Assembly (NCBI GenBank): GCA_947448625.1
Contig: CANFOT010000003.1
Span: forward strand, 61,860-125,859
Direction of reading: 5' to 3'
DNA length: 64,000 nucleotides
DNA from: Burkholderiaceae bacterium
Lineage (GTDB): Bacteria > Pseudomonadota > Gammaproteobacteria > Burkholderiales > Burkholderiaceae
Part shown: piece by piece, positions 52,055 through 60,702 of the stretch
How the letters are laid out: the number at the start of each line of letters is the position of its first letter
Position numbering within the stretch: the stretch's first letter is position 1
The notes under the pieces: generated by a model
Told to the model about the DNA's origin: nothing
What the model saw: the letters and a program-made list of their open reading frames with translations, nothing else
Database searches by the model: none
Translations under genes and position numbers: made by a program

Positions 52055-52104
52055 GTTGTGTCCTTTGCTTCAAATGTGGTTTGCTATCTACAATTGTTGC
52101 ATAT

Positions 52105-53976
52105 ATGCCCATGCTCCCTGCCATCCGCCAAATCCCCACTCTCCTGCTCCTAGCCCTTCTGGCTGGGGTAGCGGTTAATTCGGCCCATAGCGCTCAGGGG
52201 ATTGCCCAGTATGGAAAACCTAAATATGCAGATGGATTTAGTCACTTTGACTATGTCAATCCGAATGCCCCGAGGGGTGGCGCCTTAATCTTGCCCAACC
52301 CCGACCGCCGGACGAGCTTTGATAAGTTCAATCCATTTACGCTGCGAGGCGTAGCTGCTCCTGGGGTGGCGCAACTGATGTTTGAGTCTCTCGCAATAGG
52401 AAGTGCGGATGAGGTCTCCAGTGCTTATGGCCTGATAGCGGAAGATATCGCAGTGGCACCCGACAAGATGTCTGTGGTGTTTCGTATCCGTCCTGAGGCA
52501 AAGTTTTCAGATGGCAGCGCCATCTTGGCTGGCGATGTCAAACACAGCTTTGACACTTTGATGAGTTCGCTTGCTAATCCGCAATTTAAAACAGTCTATG
52601 CCGATGTCAAGCAAGCAGTAGTGGTTTCCGATCGCGTGATTCGTTTTGACTTTAAAAATCGCAACCCGGAATTGCCGGTGATGGTGGGTACCTTGCCTGT
52701 ATTTTCTCGTAACTGGGGTAAAAAGCCTGATGGCACGATCACCCCATTTGATAAGTTGACCTTTGAGCTGCCAATAGCAAGCGGTCCGTATGTGATTGAG
52801 TCGTACAAGGCTGGTAAGACCATGATCTTTAAGCGCAATCCAAACTACTGGGCCGATCAAGGCGGCAAGACACTCAATGTCCGCGTTGGGTTTTATAACT
52901 TTGATCGCGTGAACTACAAGCTATATAGCGATGATGCTGTACGTCTAGAGGCCTTTAAGGCTGGTGAGTTTGATGCTCTGGTGGAGTACCGCGCCAAGAA
53001 TTGGGCGAAGAGTTATGTCGGCCCAAGATTTAATGACGGTACTTTAGAAAAGAAAGCTTTTCTAAATCACAACGGCGCAGGTATGCAAGGTTTTGCGATG
53101 AATGTGCGTAGACCGATTTTTCAGGACCCACGTGTACGACAAGCCTTGGGTTATGCGCTTGACTTTGAGTGGTTAAATCGCCAATTGTTTTTTGAGCAAT
53201 ACAGTCGCATTAATAGTTACTTTACGAACAGTGATCTGAGTGCGAATGTTGATGGTCCTCGCAAACCTACTGAAGCGGAATTAAAACTACTCAAACCCCT
53301 AAAAGCACAATATCCCAAGTGGGTGCCTGACGCAGTCTTTGATCCGATGCCTGCTGCACCTTCAACCGTTTCGCCGGATAGCTTGCGTCAAAACCTGCGC
53401 AAGGCACGTGACTTGTTGGCTCAGGCTGGCTGGCAATACCGAGATGGTGCCCTACGTAATATGCAGGGTCAGCCTTTCCGTTTTGAGATGGTTGAGGATG
53501 GCCCATTTTTCTTAAGGGTGATTTCATCCTATGTTCGTAATTTAGAGAAGTTGGGTATTCAGGTTGATATTCGGACGAGTGACTTTGCTTTACATCAGAA
53601 ACGTATGGACGAATACGACTTCGATATGACTACCATTCGCTTCCCTGACTCACAAAATCCTGGTAATGAATTGTGGGATCGCTTTGGTAGTCAGGCCGCA
53701 AAAGAAAAAGGTTCTGATAATGTCATTGGGGTTCAATCTCCCGTAGTGGATGCTTTAGTGGATGCGGTTGTCAAAGCCCAGACTCGGGATGAGCTACGTG
53801 CAGCTACTAGAGCTTTAGACCGCGTTCTTTGGAATAGTTATTACGTGATTCCGCAGTGGTACAACCCCACGCACCGAATCGCGTATCGTAAAGAGATGCG
53901 CTATCCAGAACCTCCTTTGTATTACACCGCTGAATCTTGGATTCTTCTCAACTGGTGGAAAGAAGGTGCACGCTAA
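52105..53976 (+). CDS. yejA: Peptide ABC transporter substrate-binding protein YejA
   Basis: Signal peptide; YGKPKYADGFSHFDYVNPNAPRGG; RIPEAKFSDGS-like core. Start chosen at ATG 52105. Confidence 0.92.
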   Translation: MPMLPAIRQIPTLLLLALLAGVAVNSAHSAQGIAQYGKPKYADGFSHFDYVNPNAPRGGALILPNPDRRTSFDKFNPFTLRGVAAPGVAQLMFESLAIGSADEVSSAYGLIAEDIAVAPDKMSVVFRIRPEAKFSDGSAILAGDVKHSFDTLMSSLANPQFKTVYADVKQAVVVSDRVIRFDFKNRNPELPVMVGTLPVFSRNWGKKPDGTITPFDKLTFELPIASGPYVIESYKAGKTMIFKRNPNYWADQGGKTLNVRVGFYNFDRVNYKLYSDDAVRLEAFKAGEFDALVEYRAKNWAKSYVGPRFNDGTLEKKAFLNHNGAGMQGFAMNVRRPIFQDPRVRQALGYALDFEWLNRQLFFEQYSRINSYFTNSDLSANVDGPRKPTEAELKLLKPLKAQYPKWVPDAVFDPMPAAPSTVSPDSLRQNLRKARDLLAQAGWQYRDGALRNMQGQPFRFEMVEDGPFFLRVISSYVRNLEKLGIQVDIRTSDFALHQKRMDEYDFDMTTIRFPDSQNPGNELWDRFGSQAAKEKGSDNVIGVQSPVVDALVDAVVKAQTRDELRAATRALDRVLWNSYYVIPQWYNPTHRIAYRKEMRYPEPPLYYTAESWILLNWWKEGAR

Positions 53977-55052
53977 TGCAGGGTCAAATGTGGTCTTATA
54001 TTTTCAAGCGCATGCTCTTGATGATTCCTACTTTGTTGGGGGTGCTAACTCTGACATTTGCGGTGGTGCAGTTTGTCCCGGGCGGTCCAGTCGAGCAGTT
54101 GATGTTGGAGTTAAAAGGGAAGGGTGATGCTGCAGTTAGCGGGGCAGAGTCTTCTGGTGGTGGCAGCAACTATCGTGGTCGCCAAGGTGTGGATGCTGAG
54201 CGCCTGGCTGAGGTCAAGGCTTTATATGGTTTTGATAAACCTCCGCTTGAGCGCTATTTCATGATGCTCAAGCGCTTTGCCCAATTTGATTTAGGTGAGA
54301 GTTACTACCAGCACCAAAGTGTTTGGCAGTTGGTGGTTTCTAAATTACCAGTGTCGATCAGCATTGGTTTGTGGACCTTCTTTCTCACGTACTTGGTGTC
54401 GATACCTCTGGGTATCGCTAAGGCAGTGAGGGATGGCTCGCGTTTTGATGCGATTACCAGCACGATGATTTTGGTGGGTTACGCAATCCCAGGTTTTGTA
54501 TTGGGAGTCCTACTTCTTGTCATCTTTGGTGGCGGTAGTTTCTTGCAAATCTTCCCTCTGCGCGGTCTGACTTCAGATAACTGGGGTGATTTGAGTGTGA
54601 TGGGTAAGGTAATGGATTATTTGTGGCATTTGGTATTACCAATTACCGCTTCAGTTTTGGGAAGCTTTGCAGTGATGACGATGCTGACAAAAAACTCTTT
54701 TTTAGAAGAAATCCGGAAGCAGTACGTTCTGACTGCCCGAGCTAAAGGCCTCACCGAGAAGCAAGTTCTTTGGAAGCACGTGTTCCGTAACGCGCTCCTT
54801 CCCTTAGTAACAGGTTTTCCAGCGGCATTTATAGGCGCTTTCTTTACTGGCTCATTGTTGATTGAGACCTTATTTTCTTTGGACGGACTGGGTTTACTGT
54901 CTTACGAATCAGTGATGCGCCGCGATTACCCAGTTGTTTTTGGAACGCTGTATCTCTTCACGCTGATTGGCTTATTTACCAAGTTGATTTCTGATCTTTG
55001 CTATGTCTATATTGATCCGCGCATTCAGTTTGGCGCGGGGGGTGGATCATGA
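53976..55052 (+). CDS. yejB: ABC transporter permease YejB
   Basis: YIFKRMLLMIPTLLGVLTLTFAVVQFVPGGPVEQ; YVLTARAKGLTEKQVLWKHVFRNALLPLVTG; start TAATG overlapping yejA stop. Confidence 0.94.
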   Translation: MQGQMWSYIFKRMLLMIPTLLGVLTLTFAVVQFVPGGPVEQLMLELKGKGDAAVSGAESSGGGSNYRGRQGVDAERLAEVKALYGFDKPPLERYFMMLKRFAQFDLGESYYQHQSVWQLVVSKLPVSISIGLWTFFLTYLVSIPLGIAKAVRDGSRFDAITSTMILVGYAIPGFVLGVLLLVIFGGGSFLQIFPLRGLTSDNWGDLSVMGKVMDYLWHLVLPITASVLGSFAVMTMLTKNSFLEEIRKQYVLTARAKGLTEKQVLWKHVFRNALLPLVTGFPAAFIGAFFTGSLLIETLFSLDGLGLLSYESVMRRDYPVVFGTLYLFTLIGLFTKLISDLCYVYIDPRIQFGAGGGS

Positions 55053-56074
55053 GTCGCTGGCATCGTTTTAAAAACAGTCGTATGGGTTATGCCAGTCTCT
55101 GGATCTTCATGGTCTTGTTTGGGTTATCGATGTGCGCTGAGTTGATTGCTAATGACAAACCTTTGGTGGTGCGCTATGAAGGAAAGTTTTATTTCCCAAT
55201 CATGAAGTCCCAACCAGAAAGGGTATTTGGAGGTGACTTTGCCACGCCAACCGATTTTTTAGATCCAGATATTCGCCGCAATATTACGACTAATGGCAAT
55301 TGGGCAATATATCCACCCATTCCATACAGCTATGAGACGCTCAATTACTTTTCAAAAGAACCCAATCCAGCGTCTCCCTCTTTTGATAACTGGCTAGGAA
55401 CAGATGATCGTGGGCGCGATGTCTTGTCACGTTTAATTTATGGCTTTCGCCTGTCGATTTTGTTTGGTTTAGCGTTAACGATTGTAGGGGTTAGTGTGGG
55501 CATCATCACTGGCTCTTTGATGGGTTTCTTTGGCGGTAAGTTTGATCTAGTTTCTCAGCGCTTGATTGAGATTTGGTCAGCGATGCCAGAGTTATATCTA
55601 CTGATCATCTTTGCCTCTATCTTTAACCCGAGCATTTGGCTCTTAATTATTTTGTTAGCAGCTTTTGGTTGGATGGGTCTATCTGATTACGTGCGCGCAG
55701 AGTTTTTCCGTAACCGTGCATTGGAGTACGTTCGCGCAGCTAGGGCGTTGGGCTTAACGAATCTGCAAATCATGCGTCGTCATATCCTGCCCAATAGCTT
55801 GACGCCAGTAATTACTTTTTTACCTTTCAGAATGAGTGCGGCGATTTTGTCCCTCACGAGTTTGGATTTCTTGGGTCTTGGCGTACCGCCGGGAACGCCG
55901 AGTCTTGGCGAGCTGCTATCTCAAGGGAAAAGTAATCTTGATGCGTGGTGGATTTCACTGTCAACCTTTGTGGTCTTGGTAGCCACCTTACTTTTACTCA
56001 CTTTTATGGGTGAGGCCTTACGAGACGCGTTTGATTCTCGCAAGTCGGGCGCCATGAGCGGAGGGCGCTCATGA
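55049..56074 (+). CDS. yejE: ABC transporter permease YejE
   Basis: NWLGTDDRGRDVLSRLIYGFRLSILFGL; EYVRAARALGLTNLQIMRRHILPNSLTPVI. Confidence 0.94.
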   Translation: MSRWHRFKNSRMGYASLWIFMVLFGLSMCAELIANDKPLVVRYEGKFYFPIMKSQPERVFGGDFATPTDFLDPDIRRNITTNGNWAIYPPIPYSYETLNYFSKEPNPASPSFDNWLGTDDRGRDVLSRLIYGFRLSILFGLALTIVGVSVGIITGSLMGFFGGKFDLVSQRLIEIWSAMPELYLLIIFASIFNPSIWLLIILLAAFGWMGLSDYVRAEFFRNRALEYVRAARALGLTNLQIMRRHILPNSLTPVITFLPFRMSAAILSLTSLDFLGLGVPPGTPSLGELLSQGKSNLDAWWISLSTFVVLVATLLLLTFMGEALRDAFDSRKSGAMSGGRS

Positions 56075-57750
56075 GTACACATCAACACTCAAATCAATTG
56101 GCAACCCCATTACTGCGTTATGAGGATTTCTCAATTTCTTTTGGATCAGGTCGGCGCGAGAAATTTGCTGTTAGCCGCCTTGATCTAGAAATTGCGGTGG
56201 GTGAGCGAGTAGCCTTAGTTGGAGAGTCTGGCTCAGGCAAGACCTTGACTGCGTTAGCACCTCTGCGCCTTGAGCCAGAGGGTGCGAAAACGTCAGGTCG
56301 CATTTTGTGGAGTGGTAAGCACGCGGATGCCGGTAAACCACCTGTCAATTTGCTGGATTTGCCAATACAAGGTATCCGCGAGATTCGTGGTCGAGAGATT
56401 GCAATGGTGTTTCAGGAGCCTATGACTGCGCTCAATCCTTTGTTTACTATCGGCAATCAAATCGTTGAGGCGGTGCAGATATATCAACCGTTAATCTCTA
56501 AAGCGGATTGCATGTCTGCAGCAATTGACTTGCTCAAGAAAACTGGTATTCCAGAGCCGGAGAAACGTTTCCACTCTTATCCACACCAGCTTTCTGGCGG
56601 ACAGCGTCAGCGAGCCATGATTGCAATGGCACTGGCTTGCAAGCCGCGACTCCTGATCGCTGATGAACCAACCACTGCGTTAGATGTGAGTTTGCGTTTA
56701 CAGATTTTGGATTTACTAAAAGAGTTGCAGGAAGAATCCAAAGATGATGGCGGCATGGCTATTTTGCTCATCACCCATGATCTCAATTTAGTAAAGCATT
56801 TTGCTCACCGCGTTGCCGTATTAAATCAAGGCAATCTGATGGAGGTGGGGTCAACTCAGCAAGTTTTTAATCACCCCGAGAATGCTTATACAAAAGCTCT
56901 GGTCAATAGCGCTCCTGTGCGTGATCTAGCCCCAGTGATGCCTTTAGCACCAGTGCTGTTGAAGGCGGAAGACCTGTCAGTCTCTTATCCGGGTACGGAG
57001 TCTGCTGCTTGGTTCAAGAAGCCTGCACGCCATCAGGTATTGCGCAAGGTCAGCTTTGAGCTAAAGCAGGGCCAGACAATCGGCGTAATCGGTGAGTCCG
57101 GCTCTGGTAAGACCACCTTAGGTATGGCGATCTTAGGCTTATTAGGAGACTCTGCGGCTGAGATTGCGGGCACAGTAGATGTGCTTGGTCATGATTGGCA
57201 AAAGTTAAAGCCAGTGGAGCGTCGCGCCATGCGCTCTAGTTTGCAGGTGATTTTTCAGGATCCATTTGGCTCTCTTTCGCCGCGGATGACTGTGATGCAA
57301 ATTGTTTCAGAGGGTTTGGATGTGCACTTTCCAAAATTATCTAGCGCAGAGCGTGAGTCTCGCGTCTTGGATATTTTGCGAGAAGTCGGCATAGATCGTT
57401 CAGCGCTCACGCGTTACCCCCACGAGTTTTCTGGCGGGCAGAGGCAGCGTATCGCAATTGCCCGCGCTTTGATTTTGAAGCCACAGATCTTGGTGTTAGA
57501 TGAGCCTACCTCAGCCTTAGATGTATCGATTCAAAAACAAGTACTCGCTTTGTTGACCGAGCTTCAGAAAAAATACAACTTGGCCTACCTGATGATTAGT
57601 CATGATTTGGCGGTCATTCGAGCGATGTCACATGAGGTGATGGTGCTCAAAGCTGGAAGAATGGTGGAGTTTGGGGATACTGAGACTCTGATTAAGCACC
57701 CTCGTCAGGTGTATACCAAAGAGCTTTTTGCTGCCGCTGAGTTGACTTAA
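56071..57750 (+). CDS. yejF: ABC transporter ATP-binding protein YejF (two NBDs)
   Basis: GESGSGKTLTALA and GESGSGKTTLGMA; two LSGGQRQR/FSGGQRQR signatures. Confidence 0.95.
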   Translation: MSTHQHSNQLATPLLRYEDFSISFGSGRREKFAVSRLDLEIAVGERVALVGESGSGKTLTALAPLRLEPEGAKTSGRILWSGKHADAGKPPVNLLDLPIQGIREIRGREIAMVFQEPMTALNPLFTIGNQIVEAVQIYQPLISKADCMSAAIDLLKKTGIPEPEKRFHSYPHQLSGGQRQRAMIAMALACKPRLLIADEPTTALDVSLRLQILDLLKELQEESKDDGGMAILLITHDLNLVKHFAHRVAVLNQGNLMEVGSTQQVFNHPENAYTKALVNSAPVRDLAPVMPLAPVLLKAEDLSVSYPGTESAAWFKKPARHQVLRKVSFELKQGQTIGVIGESGSGKTTLGMAILGLLGDSAAEIAGTVDVLGHDWQKLKPVERRAMRSSLQVIFQDPFGSLSPRMTVMQIVSEGLDVHFPKLSSAERESRVLDILREVGIDRSALTRYPHEFSGGQRQRIAIARALILKPQILVLDEPTSALDVSIQKQVLALLTELQKKYNLAYLMISHDLAVIRAMSHEVMVLKAGRMVEFGDTETLIKHPRQVYTKELFAAAELT

Positions 57751-57885: not shown

Positions 57886-58572
57886 ATGATGTCCTTTCAA
57901 AAAGACCTGTTGCCAGCCTTAGTTAAGCAAACGCCGATGGCCTTGCTTATCGCGTTTGTGCTTGCCGCTCATCCAGTAATGGCGGTGGATTCCACTCCTG
58001 ACGCTGTCAAAGAGGCATCGATCGAAGTGGTTAAAGAGGCCCCCAAAGAAAGCATGTTTCAGGCTGGTAAGTCTTACTTTGCTCGCGTATCTGATCGCTT
58101 GGCAGATTCTGTAACTGGTAAATCAGACGAATTAATTAACCGTGCCATGGAAGTTATTGGCGTGCGTTATCGCTGGGACGCAGAATTGCCCCAATCCGGT
58201 TTGGATGGCAGTAGTTTTGTGGGTTATGTCTTCAAGGACAAATTGGGTTTTTTATTGCCGCGTAAATCGACTCAAATGAGTCGTGTTGGCAAGCCTATCA
58301 CTCGTGAAGAATTACAGCCCGGTGATTTAGTGTTCTTCAACACGATGCGTTTAACTTTCTCTCATGTCGGCATTTATGTTGGCGACAATAAATTTATTCA
58401 CTCTCCATCTAAGGGCACCAGTGTCCGCGTAGATGATCTTGGTAGTCTCTATTGGGATAAGCGCTTTGATGGCGCCCGTCGTTTAGATGGCAGTGATAAC
58501 TTGGGCGACTCAGAGCGTCAAGAGTTGTTGAATGAAGTGAATAAACTCAAACGCAAATCTCGTAGCCTCTAG
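57886..58572 (+). CDS. NlpC/P60-domain protein lacking the canonical catalytic Cys
   Basis: VIGVRYRWDAELPQSGLDGSSFVGYVF...LQPGDLVFFNTMRLTFSHVGIYVGDNKFIHSP; family expectation is G-x-D-C-S-G. Confidence 0.9.
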   Translation: MMSFQKDLLPALVKQTPMALLIAFVLAAHPVMAVDSTPDAVKEASIEVVKEAPKESMFQAGKSYFARVSDRLADSVTGKSDELINRAMEVIGVRYRWDAELPQSGLDGSSFVGYVFKDKLGFLLPRKSTQMSRVGKPITREELQPGDLVFFNTMRLTFSHVGIYVGDNKFIHSPSKGTSVRVDDLGSLYWDKRFDGARRLDGSDNLGDSERQELLNEVNKLKRKSRSL

Positions 58573-58581
58573 TTTTTTGCT

Positions 58582-59538
58582 TTAGAAGCTAGCTGCAAGA
58601 CCAATAGAAGTACCTCGGACGTTCTGCCCAAATTGATATCGAAACACCAATCTCACCCTGCTGAAAATGGGGTCTGATGCACTTCGATCAATCTCCACAC
58701 CAGTACCTACGGAGGAGAGGGAATCAAATCCCAGGGCGCCACGCAGTTGACCAAGAAACTCGGTATGCGCCACTTCAAATACAGCGCGCAATGGTCTCTC
58801 TAGTACTGTTAGTGGAGTCGGGTATCTGGCTCTAGCCCACAGGCCTACACTTTTAGAATCTGCAGAACCTTGAACGGCGGCAGAGGTATCAAAGGTATTG
58901 ATGGCGATATTGGTGTAGCGCAACTCAACATCGTATTCACGCTCGGGTTTGTAGTCCTCGTAATCGAGCATCAATGAGCCGCCAGCGCCATAGGCATTCA
59001 TGCGACCTTTGTTTAGAAACTGCAAATCTGTGCCGGTGTTATTTTGAATATAGCGACCTGCAATTGAAAGATCACTCTCTACGTGACCAAGCATGATGTT
59101 GGCAATCGGACGAATACGTAAGTTATCTGTTAGCGGGAAGTCCCAGCCAATGCCGCCTGTGCCCGTAATGCCATTCCAATGTACGGGCACTGTGACACCA
59201 GTGCTACCAATGCCATCAGTAAATGTTGGGTTATAGCGATTAATAGCAATTGTGCCCTCGAGGTAGAGTGGGAAGTTGGCGCTAACGCGATCGCCACCCC
59301 CAAGAGAAATCATCTGTAAATTTGGGTTGTCCCCACCTTTATCGGTGATTGAGAGAGACCCAGTAGTGACATCGGGAGTGAGTGAGTAACCCGTGATAGT
59401 CATGAACGCATCGGTGCGTTTCTTGAGGAAATTATTCGCTGTCGCAGAGTATTGGCTGGTCTGCGCATAAGCTTGTTGCGCCAGCATCGAAAGTGCCAGG
59501 GCGATCAAGACCTTAAGAAGGGCTGGGAAGGATTTCAT
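58582..59538 (-). CDS. Outer-membrane beta-barrel protein (solitary autotransporter-barrel-like)
   Basis: Signal peptide (...AQQAYA); alternating amphipathic strands; ends GTSIGLAASF. Confidence 0.65.
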   Translation of the reverse strand: MKSFPALLKVLIALALSMLAQQAYAQTSQYSATANNFLKKRTDAFMTITGYSLTPDVTTGSLSITDKGGDNPNLQMISLGGGDRVSANFPLYLEGTIAINRYNPTFTDGIGSTGVTVPVHWNGITGTGGIGWDFPLTDNLRIRPIANIMLGHVESDLSIAGRYIQNNTGTDLQFLNKGRMNAYGAGGSLMLDYEDYKPEREYDVELRYTNIAINTFDTSAAVQGSADSKSVGLWARARYPTPLTVLERPLRAVFEVAHTEFLGQLRGALGFDSLSSVGTGVEIDRSASDPIFSRVRLVFRYQFGQNVRGTSIGLAASF

Positions 59539-59596: not shown

Positions 59597-60511
59597 CTAG
59601 CCTCGAAGTTTTTCTTTCAGCGCTGCCATCTGCTCTTGGGCCGCCACTTCACCAGCTAGGATCGCCGCATTTCTAGATTTGAAGTCACCGCCACTCATTT
59701 GCTTGAGATGGGGGGTAATCACGATATCCGCACTCTTGAGCTCGTACTGATTAATGCTTCGCTGCATGATGGATATAGTCTGTTGCATTACACCAAAGGT
59801 TCCACTGGCATCTTGATGCACGGGCTCTGAGGAGATGTTGACTGCAATAACAAGCGTTGCGCCCATCTGCCTTGCATAGCTTGCTGGGACAGGGGCGACT
59901 AAGCCACCATCGACATATTCTTTACCGCTAATGACGGCCGGCTGAAAGACGCCCGGGACGCTACATGAAGCGCGCACTGCCAGACCGGTATTGCCAGATC
60001 GAAACAAAACCCCCTTACCCGATTGCAATTCTGTTGCCACAATTCCCAAGGGGATGCGCATTTGTTCAATGGATTTATTTTGCACTTCACGATTGATCAT
60101 GTTTTGAAGTGCATCGCCCTTAATTAGGCCACCAAATTTTCCAGCGAAAGGGAGTCCCCAGTCGGCAATGGTTGCTTCATCGAGATTGAGGGCGAGTCGG
60201 TTCAGGTCATTGCCGGTTGCACCAGAGGCAAGCAATGCAGCAATGACGCTGCCAGCACTACTGCCCACCACAATATCCGGCCGAATGCCCTGGGCTTCTA
60301 AGGCCTTAATGACGCCTACATGGGCAAAACCTCGGGCAGCACCTGCCCCTAAGGCAAGGCCAATGACGGGCTTGCGACTGCTGATTAAGCTGCATCCAAT
60401 CAGGCTAGAGCCCCCAATAAGAGACCCCAAACCAAGACCTAGGCTCAAAAAACGGCGTCTTGTATCGATTGTGGAGGGCAAAAGCGGGGTTTGGGCTGTA
60501 ATCTCATGCAT
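59597..60511 (-). CDS. Patatin-like phospholipase with Tat/lipoprotein-type signal
   Basis: GLALGAGAARGFAHVGVIKALE; VGSSAGSVIAALLASG (GxSxG); YVDGGLVAPVPA (DGG); start chosen at MHEITAQT. Confidence 0.9.
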   Translation of the reverse strand: MHEITAQTPLLPSTIDTRRRFLSLGLGLGSLIGGSSLIGCSLISSRKPVIGLALGAGAARGFAHVGVIKALEAQGIRPDIVVGSSAGSVIAALLASGATGNDLNRLALNLDEATIADWGLPFAGKFGGLIKGDALQNMINREVQNKSIEQMRIPLGIVATELQSGKGVLFRSGNTGLAVRASCSVPGVFQPAVISGKEYVDGGLVAPVPASYARQMGATLVIAVNISSEPVHQDASGTFGVMQQTISIMQRSINQYELKSADIVITPHLKQMSGGDFKSRNAAILAGEVAAQEQMAALKEKLRG

Positions 60512-60702
60512 ATGGCTATTGTATTGAGCCTCCCTTATAATGGCCAAACAGTAAGCGAAAAGACTTCGTTTCAGCGCGGGTAACCCTCCTATATAGATTT
60601 CTGGAGTTGAATTGCCCGTAGTAGCTAAAGAACACCACCAACCCATTACTGAAATACATTTTTTATAGCCTCATCAGGTCATTACCTGGTAGCCCGAATT
60701 TT

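Follow-up and report, generated by a model that had tools for sequence, protein, structure and literature searches.

The gene at 57886–58572 of the window (the whole 64,000-nt stretch of DNA that was analysed) encodes a protein of the NlpC/P60 family, whose active-site motif is DCSG, and its own motif region reads LDGSSFV, with Gly at the position of the catalytic Cys. The question raised by this locus is whether such a protein is a damaged peptidase or one that has been kept for another role, and which role that may be. The earlier note on this DNA, made from the sequence alone, had offered both a pseudo-peptidase retained for another role and a recent loss of activity.

The cysteine-less gene, its product and its neighbours

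The window belongs to a draft genome (1.76 Mb, 82% complete) of Polynucleobacter, a freshwater bacterium. The gene and the parts of its product are as follows.

57886–58572, plus strand: intact ORF (228 aa) of the Cys-less NlpC/P60 protein; 180 of the 186 Polynucleobacter genomes have an orthologue
57886–57984, plus strand: probable Sec signal peptide, residues 1–33 (PMALLIAFVLAAHPVMA, followed by VDS), from the sequence read by eye
58054–58125, plus strand: pre-domain segment, residues 57–80 (MFQAGKSYFARVSDRLADSVTGKS), a candidate helix for partner binding under strong conservation in the DGSSF lineage
58159–58482, plus strand: NlpC/P60 domain, residues 92–199, from Pfam PF00877 and the AF2 model
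58177–58188, plus strand: remodelled loop, residues 98–101, which reads DAEL here and GGN(T/S) in almost every orthologue from the other genera of Burkholderiaceae
58207–58209, plus strand: residue 108, the catalytic Cys position, Gly (GGC), within QSGLDGSSFVGYVF
58213–58215, plus strand: residue 110, Gly in the family, here Ser (AGT), within QSGLDGSSFVGYVF
58222–58224, plus strand: residue 113, here Gly; 25 of the 27 orthologues outside the genus and all Cys-containing (Cys+) Polynucleobacter have Arg
58363–58365, plus strand: His160, catalytic-type, second member of the family triad, invariant in 116 Cys-less sequences
58399–58401, plus strand: His172, third member of the family triad, invariant in the same 116 sequences

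The GGC and AGT codons, the intact reading frame, the otherwise retained NlpC/P60 fold and the signal peptide had all been described in the earlier note; the codons and the reading frame were confirmed, the fold is predicted to be retained and the signal peptide is probable. The Pfam NLPC_P60 model (PF00877) matched residues 92–199 over its entire length (profile positions 1–105 of 105, E = 9.9e-26), and the score of 90.2 bits against a cut-off of 23 places the protein in the family by descent, with the LQPGDLVFF and SHVGIYVGDNKFIHSP motifs still present. Of the residues expected in an active C40 peptidase, His160 and His172 are in place and the catalytic Cys of DCSG is missing. No lipobox Cys was found near the end of the signal peptide when the sequence was read by eye, which suggests that the protein is probably soluble and periplasmic. 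An AF2 model of residues 71–202, built from 41 sequences (pLDDT 91.5, pTM 0.87), was compared with the PDB by Foldseek and matched MepS, Spr and other NlpC/P60 domains with TM scores of 0.76–0.85 (0.79–0.83 against MepS chains and up to 0.85 against other NlpC/P60 domains). The model thus predicts that the papain-like NlpC/P60 fold is retained in the Cys-less domain. An earlier AF2 model of the full protein, made from close relatives only, had a pLDDT of 50 and was set aside.

Two NlpC/P60 genes were found in the window genome, the window gene and one whose product is lipoprotein-like and keeps DCSG intact, a paralogue of the kind that the earlier note had proposed to look for, and two NlpC/P60 matches were present in nearly all genomes of the genus. 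The window gene is flanked by the following genes, the names of which were inferred from sequence.

52081–57750, plus strand: yejA-B-E-F-like peptide ABC importer genes, directly upstream
59597–60646, minus strand: patatin-like phospholipase gene, a conserved convergent downstream neighbour

The yejABEF-like genes and the window gene lie on the same strand with a gap of 135 bp between yejF and nlpC, in which no terminator-like site was found. The yejBEF-nlpC-patatin locus is common to the Cys-less and Cys+ Polynucleobacter and to most of the other Burkholderiaceae genera sampled, and yejF and/or the patatin gene adjoined nlpC in most of the 27 orthologue loci from other genera. In more distant Burkholderiales, the patatin neighbour was sometimes kept without a close yejF within the flanks examined. 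Between the nlpC and patatin genes, the window also contains a predicted outer-membrane-barrel-like ORF (58582–59538, minus strand) that is patchy in the genus, being present in L033, L040, L046 and L050 and not found in L054, L091, L104, L106, L107, L110 and L111.

Distribution and history of the cysteine loss

Using a DNA pattern for the motif, we found Ala or Gly at residue 108 in 164 of 186 Polynucleobacter genomes and, using the same pattern with Cys, a Cys in 16. The two sets were disjoint, and no other residue was seen at this position. The Cys-less motif occurred in more than 100 independently sequenced genomes, closed ones among them. The motif variants in the genus were DGSSF (in most genomes), DGSGF, DASSF, DASAF, DASTF, DASGF and DCSGF, such that the intermediate forms DCSG, DASG, DGSG and DGSS are all still alive in one genus. 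The third codon positions of residue 108 vary freely (GGC, GGT and GGA for Gly; GCT, GCC, GCA and GCG for Ala), and it is therefore the small residue itself that is maintained. A Polynucleobacter clade with large genomes (2.3–3.2 Mb; L117, L118 and L184–L196) carries Ala at the Cys position, and the loop next to this position is shorter by a deletion of one residue.

Six genomes matched neither pattern (G025, G089, G105, G184, G202 and G205). Among these, G089 is a single contig with 99% completeness that has neither the window nlpC nor yejE and keeps the DCSG paralogue, a pattern consistent with loss of the whole segment, while the contig of G025 stops just past yejF and gene absence there is not proven. 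Outside the genus, DCSG was found in all 27 orthologues from other Burkholderiaceae genera. A Cys-less pattern that tolerates no mismatch, and would miss more divergent orthologues, was used to look for such orthologues in other genera of the order and gave three matches outside Polynucleobacter in 300 genomes, none of them an NlpC/P60 protein. The comparison of orthologues that the earlier note had called for, with the view that close orthologues all keeping Cys would point to an error or a strain-specific lesion, thus came out the other way: every close orthologue examined is without the Cys, which is kept only in the sister clade and in other genera.

In a concatenated YejB/YejE/YejF tree for which three further families of the order served as the root, the Cys+ clade was sister to one monophyletic Cys-less clade with a support of 100/96, indicating that the Cys was lost once. 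The nlpC gene tree agreed with a support of 81 and implied a minimum of three changes among Cys, Ala and Gly. Several independent losses, for which the gene tree alone (81) would be the weaker test, are not needed given the single clade in the YejBEF tree. Cys is the ancestral state because the locus is shared and all of the 27 orthologues from other genera have DCSG. The deepest Cys-less branches all carry Ala (GCN) and the Gly forms are nested within them, so the simplest and most likely history is a single change of Cys to Ala, followed by Ala to Gly and then Gly110 to Ser. The remark in the earlier note that both codons are one base from the canonical ones is correct for the codons as such, but the short and recent path at which it hints is misleading given these deep Ala branches. 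The loss of the Cys is old, predating the split of all sampled Cys-less species, and a recent loss of activity was rejected on the basis of this single ancient event and of the low dN/dS of the domain.

Selection on the domain and relation to known proteins

The median pairwise dN/dS of the domain, a check also proposed in the earlier note, was 0.015 in the DGSSF lineage, compared with 0.023 for the Cys+ clade and 0.029 for the Ala clade with large genomes, where all values are rough since they were calculated by the NG86 method from pairs near synonymous saturation after saturated pairs were left out. The Cys-less domain has been under strong purifying selection since the loss, and Tyr95, Asp107, Ser109 and the two His residues are invariant in the 116 Cys-less sequences. 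At nine positions of the domain, the Cys+ clade and other genera share a state that differs from the one found in most of the Cys-less clade, and seven of these lineage-specific shifts fall within residues 98–113: the GGNT loop (98–101), which from general knowledge of the family presumably lines the cleft, Cys108, Gly110 and Arg113. The hypergeometric probability of this clustering is 5e-6 for an interval picked post hoc. From this clustering and the strong constraint on the domain, we concluded that the protein was altered at its catalytic site and is nearly frozen elsewhere.

Constraint also extends upstream of the domain. For residues 57–80, the segment dN over the domain dS was 0.046 in the DGSSF lineage versus 0.329 in the Cys+ clade. 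In Escherichia coli, the N-terminal segment of MepS binds the adaptor NlpI, which recruits MepS (PMC11211486), and by analogy it is a reasonable guess that residues 57–80 form a partner-binding helix.

Among known proteins, the E. coli murein DD-endopeptidase MepS/Spr is the best sequence match and among the best PDB folds, and it shares the His pair. However, MepS is a lipoprotein of the outer membrane in which the catalytic Cys is present, whereas the window protein has Gly and, read by eye, shows no lipobox and hence no lipoprotein signal peptide; against the MepS equivalog model NF008096 it scored 96.1 with a cut-off of 186. The Cys+ orthologues of the sister Polynucleobacter clade and of other Burkholderiaceae share the locus and the family with about 45–65% identity but have DCSG, the GGN(T/S) loop and mostly Arg113, and the Cys+ Polynucleobacter clade, unlike the DGSSF lineage, has no strongly conserved pre-domain segment.

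The nearest analogue of the Cys-less protein is RipD (Rv1566c) of Mycobacterium tuberculosis, a non-catalytic, peptidoglycan-binding NlpC/P60 protein (PMC12067865). In both cases the catalytic Cys was replaced (Ala83 in RipD and Ala in the early Cys-less Polynucleobacter) and the replacement was kept genus-wide. RipD, however, has also lost the catalytic His (Ser132), has Glu as the third residue and carries C-terminal pentapeptide repeats that are absent from the window protein, whereas both His residues are invariant in Polynucleobacter. The window protein scored 37.8 bits against the cut-off of 215 for the RipD model (NCBIfam NF033743, NlpC_inact_RipD) and is therefore not a RipD; it represents an independent Cys loss in the MepS/Spr-like branch of a Gram-negative bacterium. 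RipD was the only case found in the literature searched for NlpC pseudoenzymes and Polynucleobacter NlpC proteins, which took in a minority of the subscription papers.

The non-catalytic NlpC/P60 kind is thus already known from RipD, and what appears to be new here is a MepS-like Gram-negative case in which both His residues persist and active-type sister forms still occupy the same locus, a situation in which pseudoenzymes are rarely caught. With an active-type clade (16 genomes) and graded dead forms (164 genomes) in one genus, the role of a dead hydrolase and the switch to it become directly testable. The case also serves as an annotation warning, as a family match alone would name this protein a peptidase in most Polynucleobacter genomes.

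Possible roles of the cysteine-less protein

Because there is no Cys at residue 108 and no conserved substitute nucleophile, we strongly infer that the protein would not cleave peptidoglycan by the family mechanism. The explanation that we consider probable is an old, functional pseudoenzyme of the MepS/Spr type that would bind peptidoglycan or a partner and modulate an active hydrolase. Such binding is favoured by the RipD precedent, by a domain interior that is close to frozen and by the persistence of the two His residues, and the DCSG paralogue would be the likely active enzyme. The pseudo-peptidase kept for another role that the earlier note had proposed is well supported by the age and genus-wide extent of the change, the invariant His pair, the purifying selection and the active-looking paralogue.

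In the proposed mechanism, the Cys of a peptidoglycan endopeptidase would have been replaced once, most likely by Ala and later by Gly, in the lineage ancestral to the main Polynucleobacter clade. The adjoining GGNT loop and the residues with which the catalytic helix begins (G110 and R113) also changed in this clade. The domain would be secreted to the periplasm with a cleft that may still accommodate a partner protein or the stem peptides of peptidoglycan, and as a non-hydrolytic binder it may position, compete with or shield the active NlpC/P60 paralogue, while the conserved pre-domain segment would dock a partner. On the other hand, the change in the presumed cleft lining may abolish binding of the original ligand, the two His residues could have been conserved because they stabilise the fold, and the complete genome G089 is without the gene, which is hence not universally required. 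The Cys loss may even have belonged to a restructuring by which the cleft acquired a new function and which turned a hydrolase into a dedicated receptor or regulator, for instance by capturing peptidoglycan turnover peptides for the Yej importer or by switching the paralogue on and off, although we regard this as rather unlikely.

Two rival explanations have published precedents, and the data do not separate the pseudoenzyme explanation from them. The dead protein could be a decoy that competes for a Prc/CtpA-type protease or its adaptor, sparing the MepS-like paralogue and raising endopeptidase activity. The effect of overproduced inactive E. coli MepS(C68A) needs wild-type MepS and was interpreted as saturation of Prc (PMC5549755), LbcA-CtpA of Pseudomonas aeruginosa degrades the MepS homologues PA1198 and PA1199 (PMC6050968), and the segment corresponding to the one by which NlpI recruits MepS (PMC11211486) is strongly constrained here. 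The window genome has one S41 C-terminal-processing protease (G000:C28:1359-1904), which is a candidate enzyme for the breakdown of NlpC/P60 proteins, the task of Prc and CtpA in other bacteria. It is not obvious, however, why a pure decoy should require the His pair and a domain interior that hardly varies, and we hold this explanation to be possible but unlikely.

Alternatively, the dead cleft could capture peptidoglycan turnover peptides for uptake as a muropeptide-binding accessory of the adjacent YejABEF importer. The gene follows yejABEF directly in the same orientation and no terminator was found before it, the adjacency is family-wide, yejE and the window gene are both absent from G089, and in Agrobacterium YejBEF and the binding protein YepA import muropeptides (PMC9790009). 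However, the Cys+ enzymes occupy the same locus, so the genes were neighbours before activity was lost; the usual binding protein is already represented by a yejA-like gene; the distant Burkholderiales that keep the patatin neighbour sometimes do so with no close yejF in the flanks examined; and YepA was reported to be confined to Alphaproteobacteria (PMC9790009). We consider such an accessory role improbable.

That the protein is still an enzyme, with Ser109 or Ser110 as another nucleophile or with new chemistry using the retained His pair, would accord with the invariance of both His residues and Ser109 and with the strong selection on the domain. Yet 21 of the 116 Cys-less sequences have Ala, Gly or Thr in place of Ser110, and Ser109 is just as invariant among the Cys+ enzymes, so that neither Ser has the look of a nucleophile recruited anew; residue 108, being Ala or Gly, offers no nucleophilic side chain either, leaving this reading very improbable. 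A decaying pseudogene, a sequencing error or a strain-specific lesion, as the local sequence when first read from a draft genome (82% complete) might suggest, has practically no probability left, as error and lesion are excluded by the more than 100 independent genomes, closed ones included, with 164 Cys-less versus 16 Cys+ among the 186, and decay is excluded by the intact ORFs and the domain dN/dS of about 0.015.
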